Shown: positions 11,613 to 61,683, counted from the stretch's first letter. The stretch: 64,000 bases of DNA from Bryoerythrophyllum caledonicum (GCA_963971425.1 OZ020524.1:14139845-14203844), one strand, 5' to 3'. The notes: generated by a model from the sequence alone, not told the origin. Numbers and translations are program-made.

Positions 11613-11638
11613 AACACCATATTCATTAAAATGAGACA
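11613..11638 (+). repeat. Element A left terminal inverted repeat
   Basis: Begins AACACCATATTCATT and ends AAATGAGACA, with one mismatch (A against C) to the right end. Like the B terminus it starts AAC and carries an ATATT...AAATG core, suggesting the two families have related ends. The flanking bases TTTA (11609-11612) are the presumed target copy. Confidence 0.8.
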
Positions 11639-12012
11639 AATCGTGAGATTTGAGACTAAAAGCCTATTACTTCGGACACAAATATCATGAAAAGTTGTTG
11701 CAAACGAAGGCATGCATCATGCAGCATACAAGAAACATCCCATATCCAACAATAAACAACATGATCATTGCGACCCTTCAAAATTGCATTACACAGAAAT
11801 TCTATTAATAGATCGGCATAGAGAATATAATTCCATCCATAGTCGAAAACAAGTGAGCATAATGGAAATAATCATACTAAAACTTCATTTTCATGACATT
11901 GTTTACCAACATAGGTAATCACAATTTAATTTCTATTAATAGTAGTCTAGGATCTATACTACCGTGTCTACAACAAAACAAGAAAGGACTTCTAAAGCAT
12001 ATAAAACTGTTT
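11639..12012. other. Left subterminal region of element A
   Basis: AT-rich, without a convincing gene. It separates the terminus from the stop codon of the third gene. No palindromes of the family are seen here. Confidence 0.5.
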
Positions 12013-12825
12013 CTACTTAGTAGTTTCCCCCTCACTAGAAGGAATGGTTGAACCACCTCGTGTCTGCAGAAGTAAAGCATCTTGCGCTTTCACTTTCGCA
12101 TACCCAATCATAATTTCCTTCCTCTGAGAATACGGTTTATAGTAATCATCTACTTCCGAATAATTCACAGATTTTCGCACAGGTGAATGACGTGATTGAT
12201 GGCACTGACCACTACCAGCCCCAGAACCACCACCTCCACTCAAGCATAGTGACTTCCGACGAATCTGTGTAGATGCAGATCCCAAAGATCTAGGCTTAAC
12301 ATCGAGAGATTCGGTATGCAATCCTATTGAACTGGATGGAGGATTACTAACTCCAACAATACCTTCAGAACTAGGAAGCCGCCTCCACTTAGCAAGGGAA
12401 GGAGGGGAAGGCTGGACATGAATAAACGAAGGCGGAATAATCAAGTTGGAAGAGATAGGCTCAGACTCCTTCACCTCGTTTACATCAATTGCACCATTAA
12501 AATAGAGCTGCCGTTTAGGAGTGCAATCGCCAATAGGCTCTATAGATGCACACATTCGCTTGAGTGGCGAAGGAGATGCCACACAAGGAATTCCAGCCCT
12601 CCGCTTAGGAGGGCTATCAACAACACCATCATCGACCTTCTGTGTAGTAAAGTCCATGATAGTAGAGGCATCATCGGTTGCAGTGCACATAAGAAATGGC
12701 TTTGAATAGTGGGATTGGGAAAAACCTCCAGGAAGCGACCCAGAGTACTCAGAAAACAAGCCACAATTGGAGGGCGGTTTACTACGATCACTCATACATG
12801 AAGGGATAATGGTATCCTTCACAAC
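12013..12825 (-). CDS. Third cassette gene of element A: Ser/Pro-rich protein of unknown function
   Basis: About 270 residues starting after a TTTTGCAG acceptor at 12826. The frame is open further upstream to 13059, but that stretch holds degenerate A-type palindromes and reads as an intron (hydrophobic, low-quality translation). No domain is recognised. The protein is rich in Ser, Pro and Gly, with basic patches (PPKRRAG, LAKWRRLPSS) and a C-terminal glycine run before a basic RHSPVRKS segment, suggesting a disordered nuclear or nucleic-acid-binding protein. The C-terminus is PSSEGETTK. It lies 350 bp downstream of the FCP1-like stop, on the same strand, and ends 400 bp from the element terminus. 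Copy C has the same gene, and B has no clear equivalent. The first exon is not identified. Confidence 0.6.
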   Translation of the reverse strand, partial: VVKDTIIPSCMSDRSKPPSNCGLFSEYSGSLPGGFSQSHYSKPFLMCTATDDASTIMDFTTQKVDDGVVDSPPKRRAGIPCVASPSPLKRMCASIEPIGDCTPKRQLYFNGAIDVNEVKESEPISSNLIIPPSFIHVQPSPPSLAKWRRLPSSEGIVGVSNPPSSSIGLHTESLDVKPRSLGSASTQIRRKSLCLSGGGGSGAGSGQCHQSRHSPVRKSVNYSEVDDYYKPYSQRKEIMIGYAKVKAQDALLLQTRGGSTIPSSEGETTK

Positions 12826-13177
12826 CTGCAAAAGACACACGAGACAAAAGAAGCGATGAGTCAACATAACAATAGTCACAGCAATCCAACGCATGCCCGA
12901 CCCGAAGATGAATATGAAAGCCCAAAGGAATACAATATACCTAGGATCCATAGTAAACACAATACGCTCGACCAGAGGATAAACAATATTACTGAAAACA
13001 ATGATGAATTCTAAAACCAACCGACAGATGAATAAGAATACACAGATAACAAAAAACACCAGACAAAGTAAATAAACTTGTTGAAGTTGTAAAATATTTA
13101 TATATTCAAAATGAAAGAGAGTATTTACAATATCGATACTAAATTCCTACTATATTACAAAAAAGGAGCCGATGAAA

Positions 13178-14154
13178 CTATGAAGCCGACGAAGAAGAAC
13201 CAAGTGGAATTTCATAGACATAGCCAACGTTCTTGTTTGAGAGCTCCATCCCATCTACAATGTATTTCATGAAAGGACTATTAGGCGCCAACGGCTCAAC
13301 CCCTATACGATTGATATTAACATAATCATGTAACTGCCCAAGAAGGCATTCAGAAACCAGACGTCGCAGCCAAGGTACAAGTTCCTGAGTAAGGAACTGG
13401 TCGTCACAAGCCGCATGTCTCCACGGACAAAGAAATATGGCATTTCTCATATGATTACAAATGCTCTTCTCCGGGCTGTCGTCGATGAGAAGGGTGTTGT
13501 CCAAATCTAGGACCATCGACTCAAGTCATTGCCTAAATAAAGTTGATGATAGAGTTTTCAAAAAGATCATCTTGTTCGAATTATTCGGATCCATCAAGAA
13601 CTTATTGGGCGAGGTTTTGATTCTATCACAGCTCTCTTGACCAAGAACCAGAGCTGGAGAAGGCATGTCCAAAAAAAGATACTTCGCAATTTCAACAACA
13701 GTAGACTTCTTCATGGAGCTCCAGACGACAATAGAGTTCGTTATGTTTCGGATGTCCACCAGAAATGCACGAACTCCAGGGCAAGTATATACAGCTTTTG
13801 GACCTATGTACGCAGGAGCGGTGCAAGAATACGCGGCCCGACTCACTGAGCCTCTAGACAACCCAGGGGCATGCTCTGTCTCGCAAAGGATGCCATTAAT
13901 ATCCAGAACAATATTAAGCCACTTGTGTCGCCGCCGGTTGAGGACAACGGACAAACTCCTCCGCAAACAGTCCTGGGACAGGACGAACACACACTAAAGT
14001 CAATGGAAATTACCTGATGAAATGCACATTGAGCAATATGCAAAGGAAGCGTCATAGATTGCATCAATTCTCCTCCACATAGCGACTTCTGTAAATCAAT
14101 CCCAATCCGAGGCTTCAATGCAAGAGGTCGATGAACAATATCATCCATTCTCAT
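13178..14154 (-). CDS. FCP1/NIF-like phosphatase-domain protein (element A)
   Basis: Exon 14154-14014 (MRMDDIVHRPLALKPRI ... CAFHQ) is followed by a 41-nt GT-AG intron (14013-13973) and exon 13972-13178. The FCP1 fold is seen in LNIVLDINGILCE (motif I), NSIVVWSSMKKS (motif II) and VLDLDNTLLIDDSPEKS (motifs III-IV), then WLRRLVSECL. FCP1/SCP enzymes remove phosphate from Ser using D-x-D-x-T. Here the first Asp is kept and the second is Asn, as in many plant FCP1-like proteins, so catalysis is uncertain. One in-frame stop lies between the two halves. The gene sits between the methyltransferase-like gene and the third gene, all on one strand. B carries four related genes in the same place. Confidence 0.75.
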
Positions 14155-14531: not shown

Positions 14532-17500
14532 TTAAAAAAGAGCGGGGAGAGGAAGCGGGTTCTGGCGAAGGCAGGCACCCGGCGTATCCTTGGGTCGAGA
14601 ATACTCCGAAGGAAGGCTTCTTCTTGAAGAGGGCTCCTCAGAGGGAGCGACCGCAGGTAATGCTTGAAGAAGAGACTGCTGCTGATCAGGAGAGGCAGCT
14701 TCGCGAACAGGAACATAATGCTCCCTCTGAGATAACCCAGCCGAAGGTTGCAGGAGAGTAGAGAGCTCTGAACCTACGTTATCTTCGACACGAGGATAAC
14801 TCATGCTCACAGGCAACTTAGTGGGAGGAGGACCAAATGATGTTGCCCCCGAATTCACAGGGCTCCTCACGTACATCTGGGCAAGGTCTGACTTCATTTG
14901 AAGCTGAAGCTCAGCCCTCATAGTCGCCTCGATCCGCGCCTTCTCCAAGGCAAACTCCAACCTCTGCATCTCAAGAGCTGCCTCCATCTCTGTCTGCCTG
15001 CGCTTTGACTCTTCTAAGCAGTCCACCATATCCTGCTTCTCCTTCATCTCCATGAGGCGTTTGATAGCTAGATGTTGATAAAAATCACCACCAGATTCGT
15101 ACTTCACAACCTTTTCAGGGGGTGGGGTTTCTCCAGCAGCGTTGATAAAGAAGTCGGAAGCCTCTATCACAGTCGGTTTCAAAGGCCATTTACCTACAGG
15201 AGTTTGAATATTTGATGGGCCGGCCGCAAGAGATCTTGGTTCTTCGTCGTCACTGTCCGAAAGTAGAATGATGGGAATATCCCGCTTCGTGACTACTTCA
15301 GTTGGTGGCGCCTCTTCAAATGAAGGTGCTAAATCAACAGGGGCGTCTCTTTGAAGAGTGGAAATAACAGAGGAAGGGACCTCATTGGGGAGCACGGTAA
15401 TGTCGACTCCAGAGGATGATGGCACCGGTAAATTGCCTACATCATCAGCATAATGAGATGATGGCCCAACAGAGTCGCGTCCTAGAGACAAGAGATTTAC
15501 ACCAATATTACTCCCATACGTATCCAATTCCGGAGTATCATTGTCGTTAGATTCCGGGGGATTCGGCGGAGGAGGAGATCTGCGCGAGAGTGGAGGGTCG
15601 GCATCCTCATCAGGTTCGTTGTCAATGCGGACTGAATCCTGACGGAAACCAGAGGATGAGGCCGTTGCAGCAGCAGTCTCAAAAGGCCTCTGTGCAGAGC
15701 TTATGCGAGCGGTGGCGGTCCTGGAGTGCCTTCGATCTTCAGTGTTGAGAGCTGGTGCGGATTCGGGATCATCGGAATCCGGCGGCAGTGGACGACTAAT
15801 ATACGCACAATCCTTATGGAGGAAGTCGTTTATGTCATACTTCTCAAAAAAATTCGCATTGTGCTTGTATAAATTGCGATAGTCTTTGTCTACGAGACCG
15901 TAAAATGATGTTCCAAACATCTGCAAAAGACAAGAATAGTGAGTTAAACTTAATACCAACAAAATCTAGAAATGGAGAGGCAAGCATAAGAGTTATTCTC
16001 GATACGAGGATAAACATTTACTAAGCATTACATGATGTGGCATAATTCAGAGAACCCGAAAACAGAATAATGTGATTGAGTGATTTATCGGGTTTATCCT
16101 CGACCCGAGGATAAACTAAGAAATGAAGGAGATCAATTACCTTACTCGCCAGCAACAGCTTGGAGCCACAAAAGACATCGAAAACTCTACTCCCGGGCTT
16201 GCTGAATGCGGATAGGAGCTCAAGGTAGAACTCCATCCGCAACTCGTAGCCGTGAACAGCAAAGCATGCCTCCAAATACTTGTTTCTCTCGGAGTAGTAT
16301 GGAGTATCCGCTGCAGAGTAATTCAGGTCAACCTTCTTCAGTAGCGTTGGAGAATCGGGATGGTCGTCTCGAATAAGGAACAGCAGGTACACCTCAGTAC
16401 ACTTTGACCTCGATGTACCCATGTTCAGTCGCTCGAATGCGGATGGCATGTACCTCGACGGAAGGCACACATACTTCGATATCCTCCTCTCCGCATACTT
16501 CTCAGCTTGCACCGCTCGCTGCTCAGAAGAGGTTATCTACACCCAAACAGCCGGAGAGTTCAGGGTGGGTTTGCTTCTCTGCGTCTTTAAGGTCTTCAAA
16601 AACTCCGAGAAGTATGGCTCATCTGATGAGTCCTCCTTGGAAGACCACCCGGGGACCTGTTGAAGGTCAAGGAGACCAAGCGACCACTTTCTGTCTTCCG
16701 CAAGGGGATCAAAGTATTCGCCGAACTCCATTTTCTCTCCATCAAAATTGCGCAGCTTGGCTGGTCCAACAACGGGGTCGATGTGGCTCTTCACGTACAA
16801 AAACTTCGAAAAGAATGGAAACACGTTCGGAAACTTCTCCACCAACTGAGATGCTCGCTTTAGCTTCCCAGCATTTGTGAGCCTCATGGAGAAGAACTCC
16901 TTGTCGGGCCGGACAAGGAGCATATTATACGTCGCAGAAGACACGCAATGTTCTTGCTTCCACACCTTCCACACCTCGTTGTTTGTGGACCCGTCTGGCA
17001 TCAAAAACTTCAAGGAAGGATCTATTGCGATTTTTTCCTGAAGGACAATGCGCTTCCTCTTCCGGCGATCTGCCCACTCCTCGTAGTGATAGCAAGACCC
17101 GTGAACAACGCTTGTCCGCCGAAGCGTGACTTTCGGATACTCATTCGGGCCTTCACTGTCTACCAAGTAGGTGAACAGATCCCGTAAGTCCTTGTCGGAG
17201 AGGTGACCCAACCTCTTGAAAAATTCACGATGAATGGGAGAGGCTCTGAAATTTTTTGCCTCATTATACATCACCATCGTGTCTGGGTTGATAATCTCGC
17301 CTTTTGTGTGCTTGTCGAGAAAAGCTTCCCACAGCTTGAAAACGTCATCAGGCAATGTGATCACCTTGATCTCATTCGTGATATCTGATGACTTGTTCAC
17401 CTGCTTCCCTTCCTTTGAAGGGTCGATGTTTTGGAAGCGGTTGACAATCAGCTTGGAGAATAACTGCAGTTCAAGAAACCCAGGCATGTCAAATATCTAA

Positions 17501-18986
17501 ACACATTCTAGGAAAATAATGAAGACATGCATGAGGGATATAATGGTAGTTGTTATGAATCATGAATTATCCTCGAGTCGAGGATACATTCTGACTGAAA
17601 TCTTACCGAGTATTTCTCCTGGTCAAACAAGGCACCATTGCCACGAGTTGAGCCCTCTCCTTGCTGGTAACTTGGTCGGCCCGAGTTGAGCCAAATTCTT
17701 CGGCAACTCAAGATCTGGTTTCCCCATGTCGGTTGAGCGTGGTCCAGGTAATTGGTGTCGTTGTAAAATTTGGAAATCCTCTGCAACTTCAGAGGATCTG
17801 TTGACCAAACTACATACGCATCTCAACGCTGTAAAACATTTCTTCGATTCTCACTGCATTTTTCGACGTTTTGCAGACGCCTAGAGGCTTCCACGCTATG
17901 CTGTCCATTGATAAGCATGAACTTGCCGTTCTTAATATTGTCCTATGACGTCGGCTGCCGCTGAAGAGGCTCACCATCGTCATCGACTGGGCAAACACAG
18001 ATCTTCTGGCGTTGTCCAATTTTGCCAAGTTGCACGAGGAAGTCCATGGTGCTTGACACGATGCCCTCCTCCATTCTCCGAATGACGTATTGGGCTTTCG
18101 CAACGACGCATTGCTCGATTCCGACCCCATTTGTTGAACTGTCGAACGGGAAGCAACCCTTGCACTCTTCCCGGAACACGTGCTGCAATTCGGTGACCGC
18201 CTCAAAATCCACCTGCGGATCGTTTCGGGATTTATTCGGAGTTGCTGCCCGCGAAATGGTCGAGGTCGAGCTTCCACCAGCCGTTGACTTCCGTTTTTTC
18301 GAGGAGGGCTCTCCAGCCATTGCAGTTGTTGTCGAGGGTCTTCTGGGCGGAGCACGGCTTGAAGTTTGAGGTGGAGATGAGCCTGATGGATTGGTTGCAC
18401 CGGCACTAGGAGCGCGAGCACGACGACGTGCACTGCCTTCGACACGAACCGGCCGAGCTTCAAATGCTGTAAGGAGTTGATGGATTTGAACTAATCGCCT
18501 ATTGACCTTGACAGCATCATCGTTAGTCCAGGGCAAGTACTTCTCGAACGCCTCTTTTAGCAATCCTTGCCCGTTTCGAACCACAGATTCGAGCAACTCC
18601 GAGAAGTCAAATTGCCCGTAATGCAAACCCACTTTGACAACAATGGAATGGCAGTGGGGAAGATTAGCTCCTGCATCATCGAATGCTTGAACTCCGAGCA
18701 CAATATATTTGTTTTGGTGCTGCTCGACAAAGGTCACTCTCTCCCTGCGGTTCAAAAGCACGTACGGGGTACTGTCATTGACCTTGATCGTAATCTCCAC
18801 AAACTTCCCGGATTTGGAGAACGACCATGTTTGCACTGTATCTTGAAACTCCCACAGTGTGCCATAGTTTTCTACCACGTCGTCGATGGAGGGAGATGGA
18901 TCGAGTGGATTTCTAAACAACTCAATGAAATACCTCTCGGCAGAATAATCGTAGTCGTCAACAATATCCATTGGGTCATTGGCCAT
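14532..18986 (-). pseudogene. ParB/Srx-like plus DNA-methyltransferase-like protein (element A)
   Basis: Three exons: 18986-17607, 17463-16141 and 15920-14532, with good GTAAG/GTAAT donors and CTGCAG/TTGCAG acceptors. Exon 1 has an N-terminal domain and a basic linker, then FMLINGQHSVEASRRL, resembling the I-[DN]-G-x-H/R-x-x-A signature of ParB/sulfiredoxin folds, and a following ISKFYNDTN. Exon 2 ends FSKPGSRVFDVFCGSKLL, and exon 3 opens FYGLVDKDYRNLY; together these resemble the SAM-binding motif and next strand of N6/N4 DNA methyltransferases that often carry ParB-like domains in phages. No DPPY motif is visible (LLDLQQV lies in its place), so it may not be catalytic. Exon 3 is acidic, Ser-rich and has a coiled coil. 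A few in-frame stops are present. The start ATG (MANDPMD) follows an acceptor-like TTCTGCAG. Confidence 0.7.
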
Positions 18987-19900
18987 CTGCAGAATGCCAC
19001 ACCACATGGATATTAGTAATCACATAGTGACTTATCATTGAGTCGAGGATAGAAATTCTCATACTTCGCAAGATACATTAGATTGTGAGTCCTGGTATTC
19101 TCGATCGAGTATAACATCTAGCGTAACTTGGCTGAAGCAATGGATTCGCGAGTTCTTTATTCACGAGTCGTAGAGACATTTATAAAGGGGCGTTCATTGT
19201 ACTTTGATTTTTAAGCTATTTATCCTCGACTCGAGGATAAACGTGGGACCAGAATGGAAACATTCGTGATGCCAAGTATGAAAATTTGACGGGCAAGTAT
19301 ACTTCACAAAAAAATTAGTGACCGAGTACAATCATGCATGATTTCTGGTCCAATTTATCATTGAATATTCACCAGTTTATCCTCGGCTCGAGGATACTAT
19401 ACATTTTGTCATGGTTTCCTCTTGCATTTATTCTCGAGTCGATGATAAATTGGTCAAAATTCAACCACATAATGGACCAGAAACCACCAATGAACCATGG
19501 CAACAAGTTTATCCTCGGTTCGAGAATAAACGGCTTCCAGTTATGGCTGTTTTTTTACAAACTACAGTTCATTGCAATAAAATCGCAGACAAACAAACAT
19601 ACATACAAACGAATTAGCAATACAAACTTTCAAACGATGGTGTCGGGCACTTCTCCACTCAGGCACGTATACAATGTTTTAGACAGAAAATCAGATGCAG
19701 CTTGAAACGTAGAATGCAGAATTGTGAAAGTTATCAAAAACTTACTTGGAATGTGTGCAAATATTGCAATTGTAAGCTCTGAATCTGATTGCAGTTGTCG
19801 TGCACAAGCAAAACCATAGCTTGTGTGAAACTAAATCCAAAACTTCCAATCTCCAAAATCTAAACTGTTGAAAAACTTTGCAAATCACTACCAAAATCCT
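18987..19900 (-). promoter_or_regulatory. Leader/intron region of the A methyltransferase-like gene with palindrome cluster
   Basis: Non-coding AT-rich DNA upstream of the start codon. It ends in an acceptor-like site at the ATG, so most of it is probably a leader intron. It holds six A-type palindromes or halves (about 19041, 19096, 19220-19241, 19377-19396, 19428-19449, 19508-19530). The leader of the A transposase (57080-57862) has the same design. Confidence 0.6.
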
Positions 19901-20115: not shown

Positions 20116-20495
20116 ACACACACACCACACAAACAAACCTCACACAAACAACAACATACAGACCTCAGAGACACGCTCTCACACCACACAGAATCACACA
20201 CACCTCACACACACTCACGCACACCTCACACACACTCACGCACACCTCACACACACTCACACACACACGCGCACACACTCATGCACACCTCACACACACT
20301 CACACACACACGCGCACACACTCTTAGACACACCTCAAACACTCATGCAGAAGCTATACAATGACAAAACCCTCACGAACACACTCACGCTCACGCTATC
20401 AAACAGGGGAAGCGAGCGAAGAGAGAGGGAGAGAAGAGAGAAAAAGCGTGTCCTGGAAATGAGCGCGAGAGCGAGAGAGAGAGAGAGAGGGAGGT
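20107..20495. repeat. (CA)n-rich and (GA)n microsatellites
   Basis: ACACACCTCACACACTC-type microsatellite to about 20400, then GAGAGAG tracts to about 20490. Open frames here are composition artefacts. Confidence 0.85.
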
Positions 20496-21075
20496 GTCAC
20501 GCCCTTATTCACTCTTGAAAAAGTGAAGGGATTGACGGCTCTTCATCATTTCCCCTCCTTTCGAGACCAAACCAAACCTAACTTTAAAGCTAAGCGGTAG
20601 ATGAATGTCCAATTATTTAGAATTTAGAAACTATATCAAAATGACGTGATCCTTCAATTAAATTTTTGGTTAATGAATGTTCGTGAATTGGAATGAATAT
20701 GGGACGTTTTCATCCGTCAATTTAATTGTACTTTGAATGATTTGAAAACTACCAACTTTGGCATACTCTTGCATGATAAAAATGTATTCTAAATTAGTTT
20801 CTTTGGGAAGTTCATAAAAATTTTACTTGGTATAAACGTATTTAGAATCTTTTAATTTTTAAAATCATCGTTAATAATATTAATTTTTCATTACTATTGT
20901 ATTGTAAATTTCAAATCTAAATATTTTTTTAATGGTAACATTGTAAACATTTATTAGAGTCATTGTTCATCAAATTAAGAATCTTTGAGTGGATCTATAT
21001 AAAACTATATTTATGTGGCTTTTTTGTTCCGATACGTGTTAATTTCATGCCGTAAATTGTAAGTTTGTAATAATT
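20496..21075. other. AT-rich spacer in element A
   Basis: A short inverted pair around 20505-20530 (TTATTCACTCTTGAAAAAGTGAA) and otherwise nothing recognisable. Confidence 0.4.
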
Positions 21076-21344: not shown

Positions 21345-21368
21345 AACGGATATTTAACTAAATGTGGA
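21345..21368 (+). repeat. Element B left terminal inverted repeat
   Basis: Starts AACGGATATTTAACTAAATG and is identical, inverted, to 41229-41252. TATT target copy at 21341-21344. Confidence 0.95.
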
Positions 21369-50655: not shown

Positions 50656-50664
50656 GCCTTGGGG

Positions 50665-52773
50665 TTACCCCCTTGGAGGGCGCTCATTCGAAGTGTCATT
50701 GTTTGTATTTATAGGGGTACGGCTAATTAATATGTTATTTGGTATGTGAAGTTGTATAGGTGAGTGGTCCGAGTTAAGAATAATGTCTTTATTTGTTGTA
50801 GAAGTGTATTGTGTATTATTGTTTGTATTTATATAGAAGCCGTCTATTAGGCTCCAATCACTATAGTTATAGCCGCCTTGTCTAGAGTATTGTGTATCAG
50901 TATTTATGTAGGTGAAGTTTAGGTTTTCTGTGAAGTGGCGCCATTGGTAATCTGTGGTCTGAGGCGGGGTGTTATGATTTCCATTTTGTCTACCAATTAA
51001 TGCTATGTCTCTGTTGAAGTCTCCACATAGCATATAAGTGTGATTGGGGTAAATATTTATTTGAGATGTAATAGTGTTTTGTATGTCCCTAATAAATCTA
51101 ATATCTTCGGGGTGAGATGGCATATACATGTGAAAGATCAACCATGATTGTAGTGGTTGATTAGCAATTCTAATTATTTGGAGGTAGGGAGATATGTCCA
51201 TTGGGGTAGGGATTTTTTTGATGTTGCCCGGGAAAGCGTATTTTTTGTGTATTAGTGTGAGGAGGCCACGGCGGCCTGGTGTGTATGGTCTACGTTGTTG
51301 GATGCATCTTGTTAGTGCATGTGTGTTATTAAAAATTAGTTTGTAGTCTTGGAATATGTTTTGTATGTATTTTGTAGATTTTGTGGCGGATAATTTTGTT
51401 TCTTGTATAGTTATAAGGGCCGGTGGTATGTCTGTCTGTGTGATTAAAGCTTGTAGGCTAGGGAGAGCGGTGTTTAGAGATGAAGCATTCCATGTAATTA
51501 TACTTGTATTTTCGTTGTTTGTACTAATGTTTTGGTTTTGTGGTGGAAGGTAGAAGGGTGGGGGGGGTGGGTGTGTATATTCCGGTATGGGGTCAAAGCA
51601 TTTTAGTGACTCATTAATTAGATTGTTAGGAAGGTAAGGAAATTTTTGTTTTATTATGTCACTGGAAGGAGGAATGGTTTGACGATGTAGAAATTTGTAT
51701 AATTCTGTATGTATTGAGTTCCCGTGATTTATAATACTTTGATTTTCTTCAAGAAATTTTGTATATGGGTGGGGGTTATGTATATGTCTTTCGGGTGGAT
51801 TTTGTAAGTTTGATAAGGTCCGTAGTAGTGTGTTAGTCCATGTAATAATATTTAGGTTTTGTGGATTTAAAAGATTGTTACATTCGTCTATGTTTGGGTG
51901 GGTCGTAGTTATTAGGGCATAAAAAATGTGTGTTAATGGATACGTATTTTTTTGTCGTATGTATAGGGCAATATTTGGGTGTGTAGTGTTGTATAGTTGA
52001 TGTAATATATGTGTGGTTTTTAAAAGAGGTGCAAATGTTTGAGCGATATGTTTGTATTCCGGTTGTAGTTTTATGGTATTTGGTATAAAGTATAGTTTGG
52101 CATTTTTCTTGTGTGTTGAGGGGTGTCTTTTTAACACATATGGCATAGGCCCTGGATTGGTTTCTATGTCTCCGCTTAGTAGTATTAGGGTTTTATAGTG
52201 TATAGGTTTAATGTGTTGTTTTTGGTTCTTTGCTTTGTGCGTATTTTTTGGAGTTTTAATTATTTTGTTTTTATTGTGTGTTTGTGTTTTAGTGTTTTTT
52301 TCCATATTTATGTAGTTAGTTGTGTGGGTGGTAGTTTTGTGTGTCAATGTATTTGTGTGTGTGTATATATATTTTTTACATAAATTTTTGTAGGTTTTGT
52401 ATGTATTGTATTTGTATATCTGGGCGGTGGTTTTTGGGTTTTTTGTTTTTGTATTTGTGTGGTTATTTGTATAAGGGTGTATTTGTTCTTTTTCTTGTAT
52501 TTGTATTTTTGTATTTGTGTCTGCTTTTGTATATAATCGGGTTTTATGTATGTGGGTTTTTTGTGTTGATACATATGTGTTTTTTGGTTGTTTTTGGAGT
52601 TTTGTGTATTGAATTTTTGCTTTTGTATTCCATGTGTGTATTTGGGTGTAATATTTGTTTTGGATATACTGTATCGTATAGTTTTTGTATTTTTTGAGGT
52701 TTTTGTATTGAGTATAGTATATTGTAAAGTATTTTGTTTTTGTATAGAAACTGTTTTGGATAAAATACGACAT
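50665..52773 (-). CDS. LINE ORF2, N-terminal low-complexity leader, 2A-like motif and APE endonuclease
   Basis: 702 codons. Residues 1-195 are extremely rich in Lys, Asn, Thr, Tyr and Gln. LILLSGDIETNPGP (about residues 195-208; DNA near 52147-52190) is a canonical D-x-E-x-N-P-G-P ribosome-skipping motif. The APE-type endonuclease domain follows: SIITWNASSLN, ITIQETKL, MLCGDFNRDI, NSDHSPIQL. In families with 2A, such as CR1-like LINEs and trypanosome L1Tc, the motif separates an N-terminal leader from the enzyme during translation. The frame stops at 50665, where the foreign block begins, so the natural fusion to RT is lost in this copy. Confidence 0.85.
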   Translation of the reverse strand: MSYFIQNSFYTKTKYFTIYYTQYKNLKKYKNYTIQYIQNKYYTQIHTWNTKAKIQYTKLQKQPKNTYVSTQKTHIHKTRLYTKADTNTKIQIQEKEQIHPYTNNHTNTKTKNPKTTAQIYKYNTYKTYKNLCKKYIYTHTNTLTHKTTTHTTNYINMEKNTKTQTHNKNKIIKTPKNTHKAKNQKQHIKPIHYKTLILLSGDIETNPGPMPYVLKRHPSTHKKNAKLYFIPNTIKLQPEYKHIAQTFAPLLKTTHILHQLYNTTHPNIALYIRQKNTYPLTHIFYALITTTHPNIDECNNLLNPQNLNIITWTNTLLRTLSNLQNPPERHIHNPHPYTKFLEENQSIINHGNSIHTELYKFLHRQTIPPSSDIIKQKFPYLPNNLINESLKCFDPIPEYTHPPPPPFYLPPQNQNISTNNENTSIITWNASSLNTALPSLQALITQTDIPPALITIQETKLSATKSTKYIQNIFQDYKLIFNNTHALTRCIQQRRPYTPGRRGLLTLIHKKYAFPGNIKKIPTPMDISPYLQIIRIANQPLQSWLIFHMYMPSHPEDIRFIRDIQNTITSQINIYPNHTYMLCGDFNRDIALIGRQNGNHNTPPQTTDYQWRHFTENLNFTYINTDTQYSRQGGYNYSDWSLIDGFYINTNNNTQYTSTTNKDIILNSDHSPIQLHIPNNILISRTPINTNNDTSNERPPRG

Positions 52774-52946
52774 GTAGTTTTTGGTTTTTGTATAATAGTT
52801 GTATTTAGTATATTGTCTAATACATTTGTTTTTGTGCGAGTTTTCTACTAGTATTCTACTAAGTGTAGAGTAGGCTATTCTATCTTGTATACTATGTATA
52901 TAGTATAATGTCTTAAAGTAGATAGTTGCCTTGTGGTCTTGTATTT

Positions 52947-54581
52947 CTACATGTTTGGCGGTTCTTTGTCTTCAAGAGATAAGTTCTTCTTCCCCGTAAT
53001 GGCGGACATGCTTTTGAGTACCCCAAGTAGAGCATCTTGGAGGTTCTCCATTTCTCCTTTGAGCTCGTTGTGCATTTTGTTGGTGTACTCCCTAGTTTCT
53101 CTCCTAATCTTCTTGTTGTTCTCCTCCAAAATCTCCACCATGTCTTTTTTGGTGAGAGTTTCGTTCTTGTCTTGCATCTTGAAGGTGGAGATGGTATTGA
53201 CAATTGCCATGTTAATATCATCAAAGCCAAAACTTTTGACTTGTTCTTCGGTGGGGCGGTTGACTCCTTCTAGACTCCGCCGGTGTGGAGCAAAGTCTAC
53301 ATAGTTACCATTCATGACAAAGGTTTTGTGCACAAAAGTCCTATATACGATAGGGTTAGAACAAAGTACATTTGCATTTCCATTGTGATAATTAGCCTCT
53401 TCTTTGTGAAAATAAATATTCCTCACATTGGCTCCTCCCATTATTTTGTAGATTTCATGTGAAGTGTGCATAACATCAAGATGGATAGGAAGAGGTGAAA
53501 GAGTAAGGGTTAGAGCTTCTTTCCTTGCTTTGGATTCCACCACACCATTAGACCCTTTGGTCTCTCCCACTTGTCTTGCTTGTATCACCTCGTCACCCAC
53601 GGTGATGTGATGTGCGAGTATCTTCTTTGTTTGAAGAGGGGTTGTAGAGATGATAAATGCGTGGGCATCGCCATGGCCCTTTTGCACGCCGTAGACTTCA
53701 TAGTCATGCCCCCGATGAAAGCTACTGTCAAGGATTTCCTTGAAGAGAGTTTGGGCTGAGAAATCCATTAGACTATCACTTTTGACCTTCACGGAAAGAT
53801 TAGTACCTTTTGCAATCCCAAGGTAGGATTTGCATACTTTGCCAACAACAACTCCATCATCAATGTCAAGGATAAATGGTCTAATGCCTTTTATGAGCAT
53901 CAAACCATCCAATTCGGGTTTGAGTAGATGCATTTTAAGGTTTCCAGCCCATACTCCTTTAGTCCCTCCATGTTTAATACTCAAGCATTGGATGACAAGA
54001 GGGTCCACCAAGTTTTTTCCCAGAGCAATATCCATCTTTTTAAGTCTAGCAAGGGTCATCTTCTTAACTTCATCATGCATGATTGGGTTTTTGGGGAGCT
54101 CAAAGTGGATAGCCACATGGTAGCTAAATGACAAGCCAGAACTCTCTTGGGTTTTGATATCAAAAGGAATTTGTGTTAAGTTGTAGTGTTGCCCATCTAT
54201 CCCTTTTCTAGTCATGGGGTAAAGGTTTTGTGGGATTCTAGGAAATGCTACTCTTGCATTACATACCTCTTCCGCTTCTTCCTTCTTCATGCCTCTAGCC
54301 ATCATGTCCAGTGTCGTTTCACCACTATAGAGCTCTTCATCTCCGTTCTCCACTGCCAAAGCCTCCATTGCCTGAAACCCCAACCAAAATTTGAACTTGG
54401 TTAGTTCAGGCATTTGTATAGACTTACCTTTTTCCTTTGTGGATGCTTTGCTCTTCTTGCTGGTGCTGGTTACTTCTTCTCTTCTCCTGGTTGCCTTTGA
54501 GCTTTGGGCTTTGATGGGGCTCTGTTCAGGTGATTCTACCTCCATGTCCATGTTCAGGGTCCTCTTTGTGCTCTCTGTCAT
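52947..54581 (-). CDS. LINE ORF1 protein
   Basis: About 544 codons from MTESTKRT (an in-frame upstream Met exists at 54632). N-terminal basic Ser/Lys-rich part, then a globular region without a domain I recognise (FKFWLGFQAMEALAVENGDE ... LSIKHGGTKGVWAGNLKMHL), and a C-terminal coiled coil (LTKKDMVEILEENNKKIRRE). It lies directly upstream of ORF2 on the same strand with a 173-bp spacer, the position of a LINE ORF1. ORF1 proteins of other LINEs bind RNA and assemble the RNP; that role is inferred here. The frame is fully open. Confidence 0.75.
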   Translation of the reverse strand: MTESTKRTLNMDMEVESPEQSPIKAQSSKATRRREEVTSTSKKSKASTKEKGKSIQMPELTKFKFWLGFQAMEALAVENGDEELYSGETTLDMMARGMKKEEAEEVCNARVAFPRIPQNLYPMTRKGIDGQHYNLTQIPFDIKTQESSGLSFSYHVAIHFELPKNPIMHDEVKKMTLARLKKMDIALGKNLVDPLVIQCLSIKHGGTKGVWAGNLKMHLLKPELDGLMLIKGIRPFILDIDDGVVVGKVCKSYLGIAKGTNLSVKVKSDSLMDFSAQTLFKEILDSSFHRGHDYEVYGVQKGHGDAHAFIISTTPLQTKKILAHHITVGDEVIQARQVGETKGSNGVVESKARKEALTLTLSPLPIHLDVMHTSHEIYKIMGGANVRNIYFHKEEANYHNGNANVLCSNPIVYRTFVHKTFVMNGNYVDFAPHRRSLEGVNRPTEEQVKSFGFDDINMAIVNTISTFKMQDKNETLTKKDMVEILEENNKKIRRETREYTNKMHNELKGEMENLQDALLGVLKSMSAITGKKNLSLEDKEPPNM

Positions 54582-55344
54582 GTCCACTGATTCTAGGAGG
54601 TGAGTTCTACAATGAGGGCTAAAGCAACACAAGCACGGTGGTTTTTCACAGTAAACGTAGAGAGGGTTAGAGTATACAGCACGAGGCCTTATCCTGATGT
54701 GCTTTCGATCCGGTTGTGTTTCTTCCGTTGTCTCTGGCCACCGGCTGGGTCCCCTCCTTTGTTTCTTCGTTTCTCCTTCTCTTTGCTCGATAGCTGGTTT
54801 GTATCCCTTCTTGGCACTCCTTTGGTGCGGAGTCTAGTTGGCGACAGTGTGCGTGGGCCAAAGGGGCGTCGGGGTGGGGCGTTTTGAGGGTGTTTCGATG
54901 AGGTTGGGCGTTGGCGAGGAGGGCGTCGTTGACGCTCTTCTGAGCGACATATCGCTAGCAACGTTGCGGCAGTCGTCTTCTCCAAGTCGCGGCAGGTTCA
55001 ATATCAGCCGGACAGGTGTATTGCGGGGGGGGTGTCTTCTTCGGTGATGTATATTGTTGCTCTTCGGGTGCTGGGCGTTTCTTCGGGTTTTGCTGCTTCT
55101 CTCGTTCTTGTCGTTGTGGCGTCTTGCTTCTCTTGAGTTGAGCTCAGTCTTGGCTTCTGTTCGGTGGAATGCTGTAGGGAGCTCTACTCTGCCGAGGACA
55201 TCCAGTAACGAGATCGGCCTGGCGCGGAGGAGGGTTCTACGTCTTTGAGGTGTGGCCCTGCTCTTCGGATGATGGACGTTTCTTCTGATTGTGTCGCTTC
55301 TCCCCGAGTGCTGGACGTGTCTTCTGGTTGTTCCGCTCCTCTCC

Positions 55345-55535
55345 GGATACTGGTCGTTTCTCCTGGTGGCGCTGTTCCTCCCGTACTTGTCTTTAGGGTT
55401 CCTCTCCGGGTACTGGTCGTTTCTCCTGGTTGCGCTGTTCCTCCCGTACTTGTCTTTAGGGTTCCTCTCCAGGTACTGGTCGTTTTTCCTGGTTGCGCTG
55501 TTCCTCCCGTACTTGTCTTTAGGGTTGACAATTGT
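55345..55535. repeat. 63-bp tandem repeat in LINE leader
   Basis: Three nearly identical 63-bp units (TGTCTTTAGGGTTCCTCTCC ... GCGCTGTTCCTCCCGTACT), preceded by diverged units. Confidence 0.85.
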
Positions 55536-55919
55536 TCGGTGGGAGTGGAGTGCGACAGGGGGCTCCAATTTGCGGAAGTGGAGTGCGGTGGGAGGTTCCA
55601 GACTTCGTCTTTCCTGAATGCAGAAACGGCAATAGCAGTGCTTCCGCTTCTGCTTGTGAGAAAGCTTTACAATGATTTTTTGGTGAATGGTTTTTGTTAT
55701 GTGCTGAATGTGTAGTTCGATTGTGTGCATTGAGGTGTTTAAACAAGACGTAATATGAGAAAATACATGAGGGTGGGAAAGAAGGGCAAGCCTGTGTGTG
55801 TTGTCGTGGCAATTGATGACGAATCTGCAACCTTCTTGTTGATGCGTTTTGTAAGTTGATAGGCGTCTCTTCAGTTGTTGACCTTTGTTGGATCTGCTTC
55901 GCTTTTTCTTGTGAACTGT

Positions 55920-56420
55920 AGGTGTTAGTATATTTTGTGGTACTAACTGAAACTGGATCTAGTGTACTAGTATTGTAATATAACGATGATCTCACAGGGT
56001 TTCTTGACTCCAGATAGGCGCTTCTACCTTGCAGCAGATCTGGATCTACGTTAAAACTCAACTTTGGACTGTGTGCAATTCTATCAAGTGTACTAGAGCT
56101 ATGATGCAACAGTGATCGCTCAGTATTTTTTGTTTGTGTTTTTAGGTGAGTGCAGCTTCTATGTGGTAGATCTGGCTCTAAACTTAATCTAGATTCCGGG
56201 CTGTGTGTAATTCGATCCGGTGTGCTAGAGCTGTAATATGGCGATAAGCACTTATGGTTTATTGACTGTGATTTCAGGTGGGTGTTGCTGCCTTGTAGCA
56301 GATCTGATTCTAATCTGAAACTAGACTTAGGACTGTGTGCACAGTGTGTACTGGTTTTACTAGATCTTGGTGTACGCTCTTGTATAATAATCTCAAGGTT
56401 TCTAGTAGGTTGATAAATAA
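55920..56420. repeat. About 132-bp tandem repeat in LINE leader
   Basis: Three to four diverged units, each with a GCAGATCTGG-type phrase, AAACTxGACTTxGGACTGTGTG and CTAGAGCTxTxATA. The remainder of the leader, 56421-57040, holds no recognised feature. Confidence 0.75.
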
Positions 56421-57040
56421 ACGCAGCATATAACATAAACTGAATTGAATTGAAAGAGAGGTGAAGGATACGTATTGTTGTAGTAGCTGGTGCTGTGTGT
56501 AATGGTGGTGATGTGGTAGCTGATGCAGTGTGTAACGGTGGCGATGAGATAGCAGTTTCGTCCAGATCCGGAGTCGTCGGTGTACTTGGCTCCGATTCCA
56601 GCTTGTTTGATGTGCAGCTCCTGGGTCCGGCTGCTATGAGAGTTATGTCTATGCTATGGGCGTGATCTATCTAATGCCACTTAGATCTAGCTCGTGAGAC
56701 GCAGTCTGGGTGGAGATTTCTTCTGCCAACTCTCGAGTTCAAGCGCTTCAGATTACTCATAGAAGTTTCACCAATGATCCCACGTTCCAACTATTGAGCC
56801 CCAGCTCTGCAGATCTGCTCAAGGCGTAACCAGAATGTGCACACAAGTAGATCTAGGTGATAAGAGCCCCTTTCCAACACTACACGCCTCTCCCCAAGCA
56901 TACACTAAGTCCAGATCTGAAGTAAAGGTGGGGTAGAAGCAATCCCAACACCTCTTGCTATCCTAAACGTCAGATCTGAGACTAACTCCTGAAGCAGCCC
57001 TCACCAGGAATTACGGAGCTCTGAGCAGGCCATCGAAAAC

Positions 57041-57053: not shown

Positions 57054-57963
57054 CATATTACGGAATCACTGTAGCACTGTTATCCTTGGGTCGAGGATAA
57101 CCTGAACTCACATAATCGAATCAAATCCATCACTAACGGGACATTATTTTTGAGGTTTATCCTCGACTCGAGAATAAAACTATTGAATCTTGTAAAGTAC
57201 TGTAAGGTAAACGGGATGCAAATTGAAAAAACAATTATCTTCGACTCGAGGATAACGCATGTAGTTTCGTTGGAATTCGACGAAACAACATTAAGTATAA
57301 CCTGAATTCATTAGCTGAATCAGGAATTGATGTCAAGTCTTGATTTGCACTATATGGGTGTAATATCCAACATGTCTGTCATTCTCGAGTCGAGGATATC
57401 AAAAGTATGATACACAATATCTGGATCACTTACTTTATGATGGTTATTCTCGAGTCGAGGATAACTGACTCCGAGTTTAATGTCATCTGAGATACATGTA
57501 TTCTTCAAACTATGAGGTGGTGAATGCCAATGTCATACATTCTTTTATGTGCTTCGGATTTCTTTCGCAGGTCTATCTTCGGGTCGAGGATAACTCACTG
57601 AGGTTTTGTGCTGTCTGTTCCATCATAAAGAAAGATTGGTTCCTAGCCATTTCAAATTGATGGAGATAATTTAACAAATCTGAATTTTGATAAATTAATT
57701 TATGAATGCTGATCTTCGTTTGAAATATTCTGTACATTTGGTGTGTTTACTCTGGGTTTAATCAACAATTTGTTGTCATAACTGACTGTTGAATTATTGT
57801 ACATTTCCCTAATTCAATGTTGAAATACTCAATATCTGGAGTTATCCTCGTGTCGAGGATAAGCATTTCTTATTTGTATCTCTCTCCTCTGATTATAGCC
57901 GTCATTTACATATTTGCCAATATCTCTAGATAACTAAACCTTTGTCCTTTTTCTTGTGTTATC
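57054..57963 (+). promoter_or_regulatory. Palindrome-rich leader of the A transposase
   Basis: Seven A-type palindromes in under 800 bp: about 57080-57101, 57157-57178, 57234-57255, 57381-57399, 57444-57465, 57572-57593 and 57842-57862. This is the densest cluster in the window. It resembles the leader of the A methyltransferase-like gene. It is probably intronic or promoter DNA. Confidence 0.75.
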
Positions 57964-60783
57964 TTGAAGATGGAAGAACGCTCATATGATGGTGTAGTTC
58001 GAGTTCCACCTACGTTACCTCTAGGTGTTGCTGCATGTGAGGGCATTCCTCGCGTATCGTGGTTCTCAAAACGCGTTATTCTTCGAAACACATCTGGTGC
58101 CGATGTTGCACTTGGACTTTGCCAGAGTGTTGATTCTGGATTTGTTCCTGAAACTGGTGGTCGACCACTTGGAGATGATCATGTTGCTATTCTAATCGCT
58201 GAATGCTTAGACGAGAATGAAATTCCATTGAATTGGATATTTGCCCTCCGAGCATGGCCAACTCGACAAGTCTTTCTTTGTAATGTGAGTTTGTATGACC
58301 AAGAACAAACTAGCATTTTCAATGCAGCTCTTAAGGTATTTCGTCGCGGATCAAGAGTAGGCGTTCGACAATACGAAACCACTCGTCACAGGGTAGAGGG
58401 TCCTTCTCGACCAAAGAAGGAAGTACTTCTTACTTCACAATCAATCAACTCTGTTGCAAGCACCGTCTGTTGTCCAAGAAATTGTACTCAACGATTTCCA
58501 CGGTGTTCAATTTCTGTGCTTTGCTCCCAAGTTTACCGTGACATTGGAGGTGTTTTCTTTCAAAAACATGTTTGGCTTGATGTACACAGGCAGATCCACA
58601 TGGATTCCAATGGCAACCATATGGTGACGCTTGATGGAATTGATGTATGCCAAAATGCATGGTGTACTATCATGGGGGTTAGTCGAGCCACATTCTACCG
58701 GTACAAACGAGAGGCAAAGGATGGGATTCGGGCAGGGGCACACGGCAATACTGGTTCAAAGAAGCCTCGGACTCATACCCTACAGGCAATTGCTACTCTG
58801 CATGATATACTTGATGATGCTGCCGATCACAATCCTAATAAGACAACTACACTTGGCACTGGGGCGAAGGTCGTCTCCAAACACCTTCCTGCCTCTTTTC
58901 AATGGATTGGAGTGTTGCCCAAAGTGAATGAGGTGAATTCAAGATTTGGCCTCAAACCAATATCTTTGTCTGGTCTTAGTCGAATTCGAAGCTCTGAGTT
59001 TGAACAATACTCTACGAAGAAGCCTGGTGACAACTTTGCCTGCTGCGGAAGATGCGACCAACTCAAGCAATTAAAGAAGGCTTGTACACGGGGGTCCTCC
59101 TCATACAAAATGTGGGAAGTCAAATTGCAGTTACATCAGGCCTCTCAACAAACTCATCGTATTTTATATTATGGGAACCGGAAGAACTCGGAAGAAAAAC
59201 CTAACGAGGTTGTGTGCATCATTCATGATAAAATGGATCATAGCAAAACCGCATCACCTCATTTTTCTCACAAGAATAAAGCGACGGAGTCCTTCATGAA
59301 ACTGCCTGTGGCCGTAACTGGAATGATTGCTCATGGACATGAAGATGTTCGTTATGCCCATTATAGTCTTGACATCTTCCCCACAGACTCAAACCACACT
59401 ATTGGATCCATTGCAAAGTTACTTCGGGACTTAGAGAGTCCACCGGTGTATTCTTCTCGTGAATTATTTACGAGAGGAAGAGCTTCTCCTCTCTCTGAGG
59501 CTGTGCTTGCGGATGCTAACATGTGTCTTGGATCCCTTGCTGCTCCACCGGTTGAACCTGTTCCTACGAAACAGTTACCACCAATTCTCCAAATGCAGTT
59601 AGATAATGCCACAGGGGACAATAAAAATAGATTTGTGTTCGTTTTTTTTTCCCTCCTTGTCCATATGGGTATTTTCCGTGAAGTGTATGTCAACTTCTTA
59701 CTTGTTGGTCATACTCACGAGGATATTGACGCAATGTTTGGGAGATGGAGTTCCAAACTCAAATCAAATAGCTATCCAACGATTCCACTCTTGATGAAAT
59801 CATTCATGGATGCTGAGATAATGCCAGTTATTCCACACCTCATTGAAGAGGTGCCCGATTTCAAGGGCTTTTTAGAAGGATATTTGTGCATTGGCAAAGA
59901 GGCCCTTACAGGTCACACTAAGGGCCAACAATTCAAGTTTTACAAGGGCTCTGATGGATTGCCAAAGATGCAGTACAAAATTCTTTGTACAGATAAGGAT
60001 TGGTTGCCTGAGGAGGATGGAGGAATCTAGCTGTGGAAAGTGATGGAAGATGGTAGGCCAATTTTGCCTCGTGGACAGCCGATTCCTCTCATTCCGCGAT
60101 GTCATGAGAATTATGATGAGGTCCTGAAGGGTATCTCTGGGTTTCTAAGTCTTTGGGAATCTATGGCTAACGAGGATCTCTCGAGTGAATATAGGAGGAA
60201 GAACGAGCATATTATGTACTATTGGAGAGGTGTTAAGGCTTCCCTCGAGGTGCCTTCGGAAGAATCGCCTCTCCTACGAGAGGGATTTTGGCCACTATCT
60301 AGACATGCTCCATCCATGGTGGATGAATATGAGATTGATGGGTCGTTGAGGGAGGAATATGCAGAGGACCCTCCATTCATTGGACAACGACGTCATTGTC
60401 CCCCTCTATCGTTTCGGGTTGGTAGAGATGTGTACGAGGGCTATGTACTTGCGGTGCGTTCAGCTGATGGAGATTTGCGTCCATTTTGGATTGCCTTGGC
60501 ATTGACTAATCCACATCCGGATCGTGAACATTCTCATGAGATTAAAGTGCAATACTCCAAACCTGCATCCCAGCATCATGTGGACTTGGAAACGTACCAA
60601 GGGTGGGATTCTAATCATGGGAATAATTGGGTTGAAGAGACTGAATCTGAACCAATCTGGGTGTATACAGATTGTATTTTAACGGCTTGGAAGCCTAGGT
60701 TGCGTGGAAACACAAGCTCCTCTAGATTAAAAATTCCTAAATCACAGGTGGACATAATCAAGGCATCTTTAGCCGAATTATAG
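57964..60783 (+). CDS. DUF7869-type transposase-like protein (element A)
   Basis: About 939 codons in one frame with a single in-frame TAG after codon 688 (EEDGGI). Start MEERSYDG. Blocks: an N-terminal domain, a cysteine-containing block (CCPRNCTQRFPRC), GIDVCQNAWCTIMGVSRATFYRY (helix-turn-helix-like), CCGRCDQLKQL (zinc-ribbon-like), then CIIHDKMDHSKTA, LQMQLDNATGDNKNRF and LLVGHTHEDIDAMFGRW, giving a D...D...HxDxD catalytic pattern. It is homologous to the B protein but has no coding introns. It is the best preserved copy of the family in the window. The role as the element's transposase is inferred from conservation in both families, its position and the flanking TIRs. The stop may be a lesion or a read-through site. 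Confidence 0.8.
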
Positions 60784-61657
60784 ATTTCAACGGAGTTTGT
60801 GGTTTTGGGGACTGGAGTTATTTTACCAATATAAAATGGAGGGGGTGCATGTTCTTTTTTTATTTTTTGTTCATCCGTACTGGGTATCCTATTAAGTATG
60901 TAGTGAACTTGTATCTATAGGATGGAATTGTAGACTTTGAATGTGCGCATAGCATATTTGTAGATGGAGTTAGATTAGTGTTTGTAGTTACATGTAGTAA
61001 TGTATTGTGTTGCTTTCAATATTATACAAGAGAGGCGGGAATTTTGTTACATCATTGATCTATAAATGGCGGTCCACATTGTGAGTGTCAGTAATTGTAC
61101 ATTCATCCTTGATGCATTGATACTTTCTATAGATAGCAATTATTGAATGGATTGCTACAATACATGCTAACTTTTCAACGCTACTAGGTATTTCAACGAC
61201 CTTGTTGTTTGGAAATAGTATAATCTCTTGAAATTGGTAATTAATTCTTTTTCAAATGAAAAGGTATGCATTCAAGGTGGAATTTAAATGAGTGTATATG
61301 TGTTATAATTTTAAATAAGTCCAATTTTGGATTCATCTACTTAGAGGGGTTATCAAATTTATTGCCGCTTCTATTTTCCATTGTAATTTTATTCTCGCAA
61401 TGATTTTTTTTGGATGTACTAGTTTTACTTAGATAATAGGCTCCATATCTAGGTACATTTTTTATAATCTATTACCTTTACACACACAATTAAATATGAT
61501 ATTCAATTTCATACAAGATGAATTCAACAATCCATGATACGGCTAGATTATTTAGCATTTTCAATCGAGATTGAGTCTCAATTTAATACATAGTCTCAAA
61601 TTAATGAAATTATAAATTGACTATAAAAAGATACCATGATAAATTGAGACTCTGAAA
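60784..61657. other. Right subterminal region of element A
   Basis: AT-rich 3' flank of the transposase. No gene is seen. It ends in a small inverted pair (GATTGAGTCTCAATTT at about 61567 and AAATTGAGACTC at about 61641) next to the terminus. No palindromes of the family are found here. Confidence 0.5.
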
Positions 61658-61683
61658 TGTCTCATTTGAATGAATATGGTGTT
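61658..61683 (-). repeat. Element A right terminal inverted repeat
   Basis: Inverted match to 11613-11638 with one mismatch. Flank TTTG (61684-61687) against TTTA on the left. Confidence 0.8.

Follow-up and report, generated by a model that had tools for sequence, protein, structure and literature searches.

The stretch examined here, a 64,000-nucleotide window of the Bryoerythrophyllum caledonicum genome (GCA_963971425.1 OZ020524.1:14139845-14203844), holds two large DNA elements, one nested in the other, which we refer to as A and B. The assembly searched comprises 437 Mb in 894 contigs; it contains three matches to the gene of the RuBisCO large subunit (rbcL), so the host is photosynthetic. 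Each element is bounded by terminal inverted repeats (TIRs) that start with AAC, encodes a DUF7869 protein on one strand and, divergently, ParB-like and FCP1-like proteins on the other, and is studded with copies of a palindrome of its own. Element A is interrupted by B and by a long interspersed nuclear element (LINE), and B by a 4.4-kb insertion. The borders are given below in window coordinates, with the strand where one applies.

11609-11612: target duplication TTTA, left of A
11613-61683: element A, whole, interrupted by element B and the LINE (defined by TIRs, copies and empty sites)
11613-11638, plus strand: left TIR of A, 26 bp (terminus matched 811 times in the genome)
61658-61683, minus strand: right TIR of A, 26 bp
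61684-61687: target duplication to the right of A, TTTG, differing from the left one by one base (supported by empty sites)
21341-21344: target duplication TATT, left of B
21345-41252: element B, whole, inserted in A (defined by termini, copies and empty site)
21345-21368, plus strand: left TIR of B, 24 bp (terminus matched 680 times in the genome)
41229-41252, minus strand: right TIR of B, 24 bp
41253-41256: target duplication TATT, right of B
22443-26809: 4.4-kb stretch inserted in B and foreign to the transposon (absent from copies B4 and B6)
45396-57040, minus strand: LINE, inserted in A and foreign to the transposon (absent from copies A1-A3; flanking repeat CTGTGACACTCCG)

Both families are mobile, as is documented by their repeated termini, their target duplications and their empty sites, and they share a gene cassette. 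The A terminus AACACCATATTCATTNAAATGAGACA matched the genome 811 times, against a single match for the reversed control, and the B terminus AACGGATATTTAACTAAATGTGGA 680 times, against none (at most three mismatches in each case). Full-length copies were picked by the presence of both ends at the expected distance, a non-random choice that yielded three A copies of 18.21-18.37 kb and seven B copies of 15.17-15.59 kb. All 10 are flanked by identical 4-bp duplications without an obvious target motif, namely GTTT, GATT, ACCT, AATA, GTAT, AAAC, ACAT, ATTA, AGTA and GATA. In aligned blocks longer than 1.5 kb, the A copies are 95.9-98.1% identical and the B copies 95.1-97.3%, except for B7 at about 91%. 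Empty sites were recovered for both elements: the insertion point of B is uninterrupted, with a single TATT, in all three A copies, and the joined flanks of A match contiguously at six of eight places in the genome with 84-90% identity, the remaining two matches being the window's own flanks. Copies A1-A3 contain neither element B nor the LINE, and the B copies compared (B4 and B6) lack the 4.4-kb insertion. After subtraction of these insertions, A measures 18,514 bp and B 15,541 bp, close to the 18.5 and 15.6 kb estimated in a preliminary description of the locus made from its sequence. That description had also proposed AAC-starting inverted repeats with 4-bp duplications (TATT on both sides of B, TTTA and TTTG around A) and two families of large TIR elements with a common three-part divergent cassette, and had named as support, to be sought with the 26-bp and 24-bp termini, the presence of many such elements in the genome; the matches, copies and empty sites bear it out on each of these points. 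All 30 A-terminus loci that were inspected align to copy A3 beside the terminus (75-93% identity over 97 bp to 1.5 kb), and no convergent end pair, as would mark short copies resembling miniature inverted-repeat transposable elements, was found within 1.5 kb on each side of these 30 loci.

The genes of the two elements correspond in order and orientation, as had been described, with DUF7869 divergent from the FCP1-like and ParB-like genes. They are as follows, where ORF stands for open reading frame and NIF is the Pfam domain matched by the FCP1-like genes.

12013-13146, minus strand: A, ORF without known function, kept in three A copies
13178-13993, minus strand: A, FCP1-like (NIF) gene, broken into two ORFs, both pieces below the cut-off
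14532-15965, minus strand: A, low-complexity, coiled-coil-like ORF, on the strand of the ParB-like gene
16024-17496, minus strand: A, second exon of the ParB-like gene, with degenerate methyltransferase-like motifs; TAG at 16537-16539
17555-18986, minus strand: A, ParB-like exon, beginning at the probable start codon and containing INGQH at 17898-17912; interrupted by in-frame stops
57964-60783, plus strand: A, DUF7869 protein, candidate DDE/D transposase (PF25273, E 1.7e-44); in-frame TAG at 60028-60030
26810-27177, minus strand: B, FCP1-like domain 4, split by the insertion at 22443-26809 (intact relative L056, NIF E 2.7e-05)
27455-28615, minus strand: B, FCP1-like domain 3, weak (relative L056, NIF E 0.0035, below the cut-off)
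28889-29530, minus strand: B, FCP1-like domain 2 (NIF E 6.9e-08)
29685-30572, minus strand: B, FCP1-like domain 1 (NIF E 1.2e-09)
31081-31641, minus strand: B, low-complexity ORF downstream of the ParB-like gene
31855-33319, minus strand: B, second exon of the ParB-like gene, with a methyltransferase-like motif (HTH_36 E 0.017, below the cut-off)
33320-34740, minus strand: B, ParB-like exon, in two overlapping ORFs; IGGQH at 33629-33643
36370-40203, plus strand: B, DUF7869 protein in several ORF pieces (PF25273 E 2.1e-43 on 38333-39589)

The DUF7869 protein is the candidate transposase. A first look at the genome gave 3614 DUF7869 candidates, of which 150 were scored; all 150 were above the cut-off, and many have open frames of 1066-1087 codons. 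None was found in 14 control genomes. The acidic motifs (H/V)D(K/G)MD, Q(L/A)DN and HTHEDID are common to A, B and a third DUF7869 family (L059), which is 28% identical to A; one further sequence, L042, is frameshifted ahead of the last motif. An RNase H-like core had been predicted for this region, and two AlphaFold models were built from the window sequences alone. Both models place a strand at QLDN, followed by a helix, a strand and a helix at HEDID, whereas a strand ahead of the first acidic motif is seen in the full-length model alone. This local order is like that of an RNase H core, which is suggestive and no more; the models, with predicted local distance difference test (pLDDT) values of 32.5 and 35, are of low confidence and do not establish the overall fold. 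A sequence search of the PDB with the DUF7869 protein returned no hits. Pattern searches for relatives gave 26 matches in viral contigs and 37 in prokaryote genomes, none of which was confirmed, although such absence outside this genome is weak evidence because the patterns were strict. The term DUF7869 was not found in the literature searched, nor was the string HTHEDID in the part of it searched for related strings. In a Pfam scan of the A, B and third-family proteins, DUF7869 alone scored above the cut-off; none of the models for hAT, CACTA, MULE, Harbinger, piggyBac, KDZ, Plavaka or other Pfam transposase families matched them. Pfam has models for each of the families named.

The ParB-like gene has several exons and in both elements lies on the FCP1 strand, opposite DUF7869. 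Comparison with hhalign shows its ParB-like segments in A and B to be homologous (E 2.5e-7, probability 93), and they have the INGQH/IGGQH motif in common; in copy B4 the exon is a single ORF of 468 amino acids. The second exon is barely alignable between A and B (E 0.11), its methyltransferase-like motifs, read by eye, are degenerate, and a PDB sequence search with it retrieved nothing relevant. Of the ParB/methyltransferase-like gene named in the preliminary description, the homologous ParB-like segments in A and B held up, and profile support from Pfam or NCBIfam did not materialize; the labels 'ParB' and 'methyltransferase' denote a resemblance of motifs, and are the weaker for it. A relative of A's low-complexity ORF (L040:4748-6319) had no Pfam match.

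A has a single FCP1-like (NIF) domain and B a tandem array of four. The broken gene of A has an intact relative, L043, with a NIF E-value of 2.9e-11, while 27938-28615, within the third domain of B, gave no Pfam match. Active FCP1 phosphatases carry a DxDx(T/V) catalytic pair. The corresponding motif reads LDING in A and LQVDG, LGVNG, LEVRG and LCVNG in B, and none of the five aligned domains keeps both catalytic aspartates; judged from these alignments, the FCP1-like domains have lost the phosphatase catalytic pair. No NIF match lay within 20 kb of a DUF7869 match among the 150 listed of each, lists that are dominated by other families, the FCP1-like gene having been seen in A and B alone; one listed NIF match and one of the 40 A-type gene matches are 7.9 kb apart. 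Literature searches found no report of a cassette of DUF7869, ParB and FCP1. As a separate observation, among the 150 NIF matches listed, many share an open-frame length of 281 or 284 codons and have similar scores, which exceed that of A's own FCP1-like gene (43.7 bits); these may belong to another repeat family.

The preliminary description had regarded the two families as a candidate new transposon superfamily, setting Sola aside. According to the portions of the literature cited here, Sola transposons have a DDD transposase and 4-bp duplications, some exceed 15 kb, and they are present in the moss Physcomitrella (PMC10741241), for which Sola1 is also tabulated (PMC9033089). The Ectocarpus Sola-1 element Sola1-1_Ec32, likewise from a photosynthetic eukaryote, is a giant transposon with a ParB-like/DNA-methyltransferase gene opposite the transposase strand, and nested insertions are said to be common in giant families of this type (both from the relevant sections of PMC12477816). 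On our side, 4-bp duplications flank all 10 full-length copies as well as B in the window; D/D/(E or D) motifs are conserved in A, B and L059, in proteins whose models have the low pLDDT values given above; and the opposite-strand layout is present in both elements, with ParB recognized by its motif and the methyltransferase motifs degenerate. Differences were also seen, in that Sola termini are variable, Sola1-1_Ec32 is 21.5 kb long and the sections cited on it mention neither FCP1-like genes nor palindromes; the string 'palindrom' does not occur in the main text of that paper (PMC12477816). Since the published Ectocarpus Sola-1 has the same arrangement and Sola the same 4-bp duplications, a new superfamily is unsupported. 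An independent DDE/D superfamily defined by DUF7869 and unrelated to Sola is, in our estimate, unlikely: Pfam lists DUF7869 without a transposon superfamily name, the literature searched does not use the term, and no other transposase model was found for A and B (E <=0.1) or L059 (E <=10), but the duplications, a size above 15 kb and an opposite-strand ParB-type gene have all been reported for Sola or Sola-1. As for other families, TTAA, the target duplication of Kolobok and piggyBac according to the cited part of PMC9587614, was seen in none of the 10 duplications.

Dispersed, family-specific palindromes are a feature that the preliminary description, which holds for cassette and termini, had not included. 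Their positions in the window are listed below.

14779-14799: A-type, inside an ORF
15993-16013: A-type
16094-16114: A-type, 3' of an apparent 5' splice site
17567-17587: A-type, 3' of the ParB exon's apparent 5' splice site
19032-19052: A-type, directly upstream of the ParB-like gene
19220-19240: A-type
19377-19397: A-type
19428-19448: A-type
19509-19529: A-type
41347-41367: A-type, weaker
44170-44190: A-type, weaker
57080-57100: A-type, upstream of the DUF7869 gene
57157-57177: A-type, upstream of the DUF7869 gene
57235-57255: A-type, upstream of the DUF7869 gene
57379-57399: A-type, upstream of the DUF7869 gene
57444-57464: A-type, upstream of the DUF7869 gene
57573-57593: A-type, upstream of the DUF7869 gene
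57842-57862: A-type, upstream of the DUF7869 gene
21621-21635: B-type
21868-21882: B-type
22077-22091: B-type
27219-27233: B-type
28252-28266: B-type, inside an FCP1-like ORF
28746-28760: B-type
29661-29675: B-type
30588-30602: B-type
31311-31325: B-type, inside the low-complexity ORF
31858-31872: B-type, at an ORF end
33274-33288: B-type, at an ORF end
34765-34779: B-type
34902-34916: B-type
35065-35079: B-type
35130-35144: B-type
36189-36203: B-type
36310-36324: B-type
37221-37235: B-type, inside a DUF7869 ORF
38257-38271: B-type
39551-39565: B-type, inside an ORF
40536-40550: B-type
40666-40680: B-type
40953-40967: B-type
41069-41083: B-type

Every A element examined contains the A-type palindrome TTATCCTCGANTCGAGGATAA (21 bp) and every B element the B-type palindrome TCGGCNGNCNGCCGA (15 bp). 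Counted with three free central bases and at most three (A) or two (B) mismatches, they number 16-18 in each of four A elements and 22-25 in each of eight B elements, the window included, and the palindrome of the other family is absent from all 12. Markov resamplings of A3 and B6 (30) gave means of 0-0.4. Across the genome, A-type sites number 3460 against none for the reversed pattern (at most two mismatches) and B-type sites 1878 against five (exact). ORFs are avoided by the palindromes: gene-strand ORFs make up 48% of A and 66% of B in the window but contain 2 of the 18 A-type and 6 of the 24 B-type sites there. A-type sites are concentrated ahead of the start codons of the ParB-like and DUF7869 genes and 3' of apparent 5' splice sites, with none in the outermost 2.9 kb at one end or 3.8 kb at the other, whereas B-type sites are spread along nearly the whole element. 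As an aside, four pairs of the sequence TCGGCTG(C/G)CAGCCGA, with a spacing of 204-206 bp, lie away from any listed exact B terminus (for example, C1:591286-591506 and C1:6305464-6307140); they may represent a small repeat that has the B-type palindrome in common with B.

The class of palindrome follows the class of ParB. ParB matches were taken as 150 scored of 1328 A-type candidates and 150 of 1430 B-type candidates, and compared with the listed sites on one 65-Mb contig, C1. Below 36.3 Mb, where 92 exact A-type sites are listed, 25 of 32 A-type ParB matches, but only 1 of 36 B-type matches, have such a site at a distance of 12 kb or less; among the A-type matches, sorted by identity, the proportion is 5/8 at 85% or more, 6/10 at 80-84% and 14/14 at 75-79%. 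Seen from the sites, 44 of the 92 are near an A-type ParB match (1.9 expected by coverage) and one is near a B-type match (2.2 expected), while an exact A terminus lies at most 20 kb from 41 of them (5.0 expected). In C1:1-14.47 Mb, 25 of the 50 exact B-type sites listed lie within 16 kb of the five B-type ParB matches there (0.55 expected), including two with no more than 47-49% identity to B. Older copies in the window, which had been described as fossils C and D and are confirmed as such, are as follows.

about 21-5895, plus strand: fossil C, part of a diverged A-like element (72-87% identity to A)
about 5946-7410, minus strand: fossil D, part of a diverged B-like DUF7869 gene (74-82% identity to B)

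Fossil C has A-type palindromes at 1054 and 2450, and a B-type palindrome lies near fossil D at 9374. In the ParB-like gene of fossil C (72-77% identical to A), the two palindromes are kept at exon-intron borders, and the intron beyond each aligns poorly to A. Among the A copies, palindromes are slightly more conserved than their flanks (0.928 vs 0.898, p 0.013).

Taken together, the explanation that we favor, and judge somewhat more probable than not, is that A and B are giant, recently mobile TIR transposons, most likely of the Sola-1 kind, with DUF7869 as the DDE/D transposase and a ParB-like protein that binds the palindrome of its own family. The DUF7869 protein, a candidate by its motifs and by a suggestive modeled local order, would cut at the AAC-starting repeats and insert with a 4-bp stagger. 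The divergent genes would supply a ParB-like DNA-binding protein with a degenerate methyltransferase-like part, together with FCP1-like domains. The ParB-like protein would recognize the 16-25 repeats along the element and, once bound, coat or mark the element from within. The palindromes are probably bound, and the ParB-like protein is probably what binds them; the role of such binding would most likely be anti-silencing or autoregulation, and helping the two ends of a long element to meet is possible.

Several observations weigh against this explanation. Neither ParB nor methyltransferase was supported by any Pfam or NCBIfam match, and no ParB model appeared at E <=10. The DUF7869 models are of low confidence, as stated. 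Membership of the Sola-1 kind is probable rather than shown, being matched on described features and not on transposase sequence. Seven of the 32 A-type ParB matches and one of the five B-type ones lack an exact site in their vicinity, and the co-occurrence of palindrome and ParB is partly expected because both sit in one element. In B1, B4, B5 and B6, conservation is lower in the palindromes than in the flanking sequence (0.911 vs 0.949, p 9e-6), and with B7 added the difference is not significant (0.897 vs 0.879, p 0.07); selection on the palindromes was not found among recent B copies. C>T or G>A accounts for 66 of the 78 changes in B palindromes, as expected of methylated sites decaying after insertion, and this is not support for selection.

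These changes bear on a different assignment of the sites. The palindromes could be recognized by the methyltransferase-like part, or by DUF7869, instead of the ParB-like domain, which we regard as unlikely. B sites are rich in CpG, most of their changes being C>T or G>A, and a ParB/methyltransferase protein has been proposed to bind and modify its own transposon (in the cited part of PMC12477816). The methyltransferase motifs, on the other hand, look degenerate and lack profile support, and the A-type sites are missing from the outer 2.9 and 3.8 kb, unlike the sub-terminal sites of transposases, although B-type sites do extend close to the element ends. Slightly less likely still is that the palindromes act as RNA hairpins in splicing or transcript control and not as DNA-binding sites. 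The 9-bp stem and short loop of the A-type could fold in RNA, two A-type sites lie shortly 3' of apparent 5' splice sites, and the upstream sites may fall within introns of 5' leaders, with CAG or AAG directly before both start codons; but in A of the window five A-type sites are crowded within 0.6 kb upstream of the ParB start codon and seven in about 0.9 kb upstream of the DUF7869 start codon, in DNA that may not be transcribed, and the B-type 15-mer can form only a short stem. That the palindromes are mere inert passengers of the element is improbable, since the absence of extra conservation in recent B copies is outweighed by their spread through the element, family exclusivity, numbers far above resampled sequence, avoidance of ORFs and persistence in fossil C beside poorly aligning introns.

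An extension of the favored explanation, binding of its own palindrome by the ParB-like protein, is held more tentatively, as somewhat less probable than not: protein and palindrome would co-diverge as a private address code of each family, such that the protein loads on, and spreads along, its own element only. With sites every few hundred to thousand bases through much of the element, it could shield the element from host silencing or fold it for synapsis of the ends. Bacterial ParB-parS systems have a GxH-type motif and short palindromic sites near the parB gene. A and B are like them in the motif of the ParB-like segment and in palindromes near the gene, and unlike them in having no ParB profile match and in their setting, a eukaryotic transposon; no ParA was noticed in A or B, although no search aimed at ParA was made. 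A second parallel is offered by the VANDAL/Hi transposons of Arabidopsis. Their VANC proteins bind short family-specific motifs in introns and in intergenic and terminal non-coding parts of their own transposons and induce loss of DNA methylation, related families using different motifs (PMC5735166, in the parts on binding). In both systems an element-encoded protein is paired with a family-specific dispersed motif, known in VANDAL and proposed in A and B. The VANDAL motifs differ in being built up as tandem repeats, and those parts mention no ParB-like protein; 'palindrom' does not occur in the main text (PMC5735166).

ParB/methyltransferase accessory genes are already known in algal transposons with a suggestion of self-binding, the binding sites being left unnamed in the cited sections (PMC12477816). 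What is new here is that the family-specific palindromes supply definite candidates for such sites, and the two families together offer an inherent swap control (A protein on A vs B sites); the idea of self-recognition therefore becomes directly testable. If true, it would be a second case, beside VANC, of transposon self-recognition by motifs scattered in non-coding DNA; if the address code also holds, it would amount to a parS-like loading system in a eukaryotic transposon, reached independently of VANC. If DUF7869 were tied to a transposase, a Pfam family that has no assigned function would also find its place.

A few minor observations concern distribution and surroundings. Contigs C5 and C13 have no match among the listed DUF7869 and NIF matches or the exact B termini. 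C1, which makes up 15% of the assembly, has 53 of the 98 exact B termini but 8 of the 150 listed DUF7869 matches; C1 may be a repeat-rich, possibly sex, chromosome, which is a guess. The two divergent gene groups of A are about 7 kb apart (20474-21344 and 41257-45395), with internal repeats and few ORFs above 150 codons in between. The outer neighbors of A, 10416-11006 and 61968-62555, resemble one older Harbinger copy, with a DDE_Tnp_4 match on the right. Finally, the 11.6-kb LINE has CTGTGACACTCCG at both borders; one of its ORFs combines reverse transcriptase and RNase H with a match to PCIF1_WW (E 4e-10), and the ORF upstream of that one carries a 2A-like peptide, LLSGDIETNPGP.

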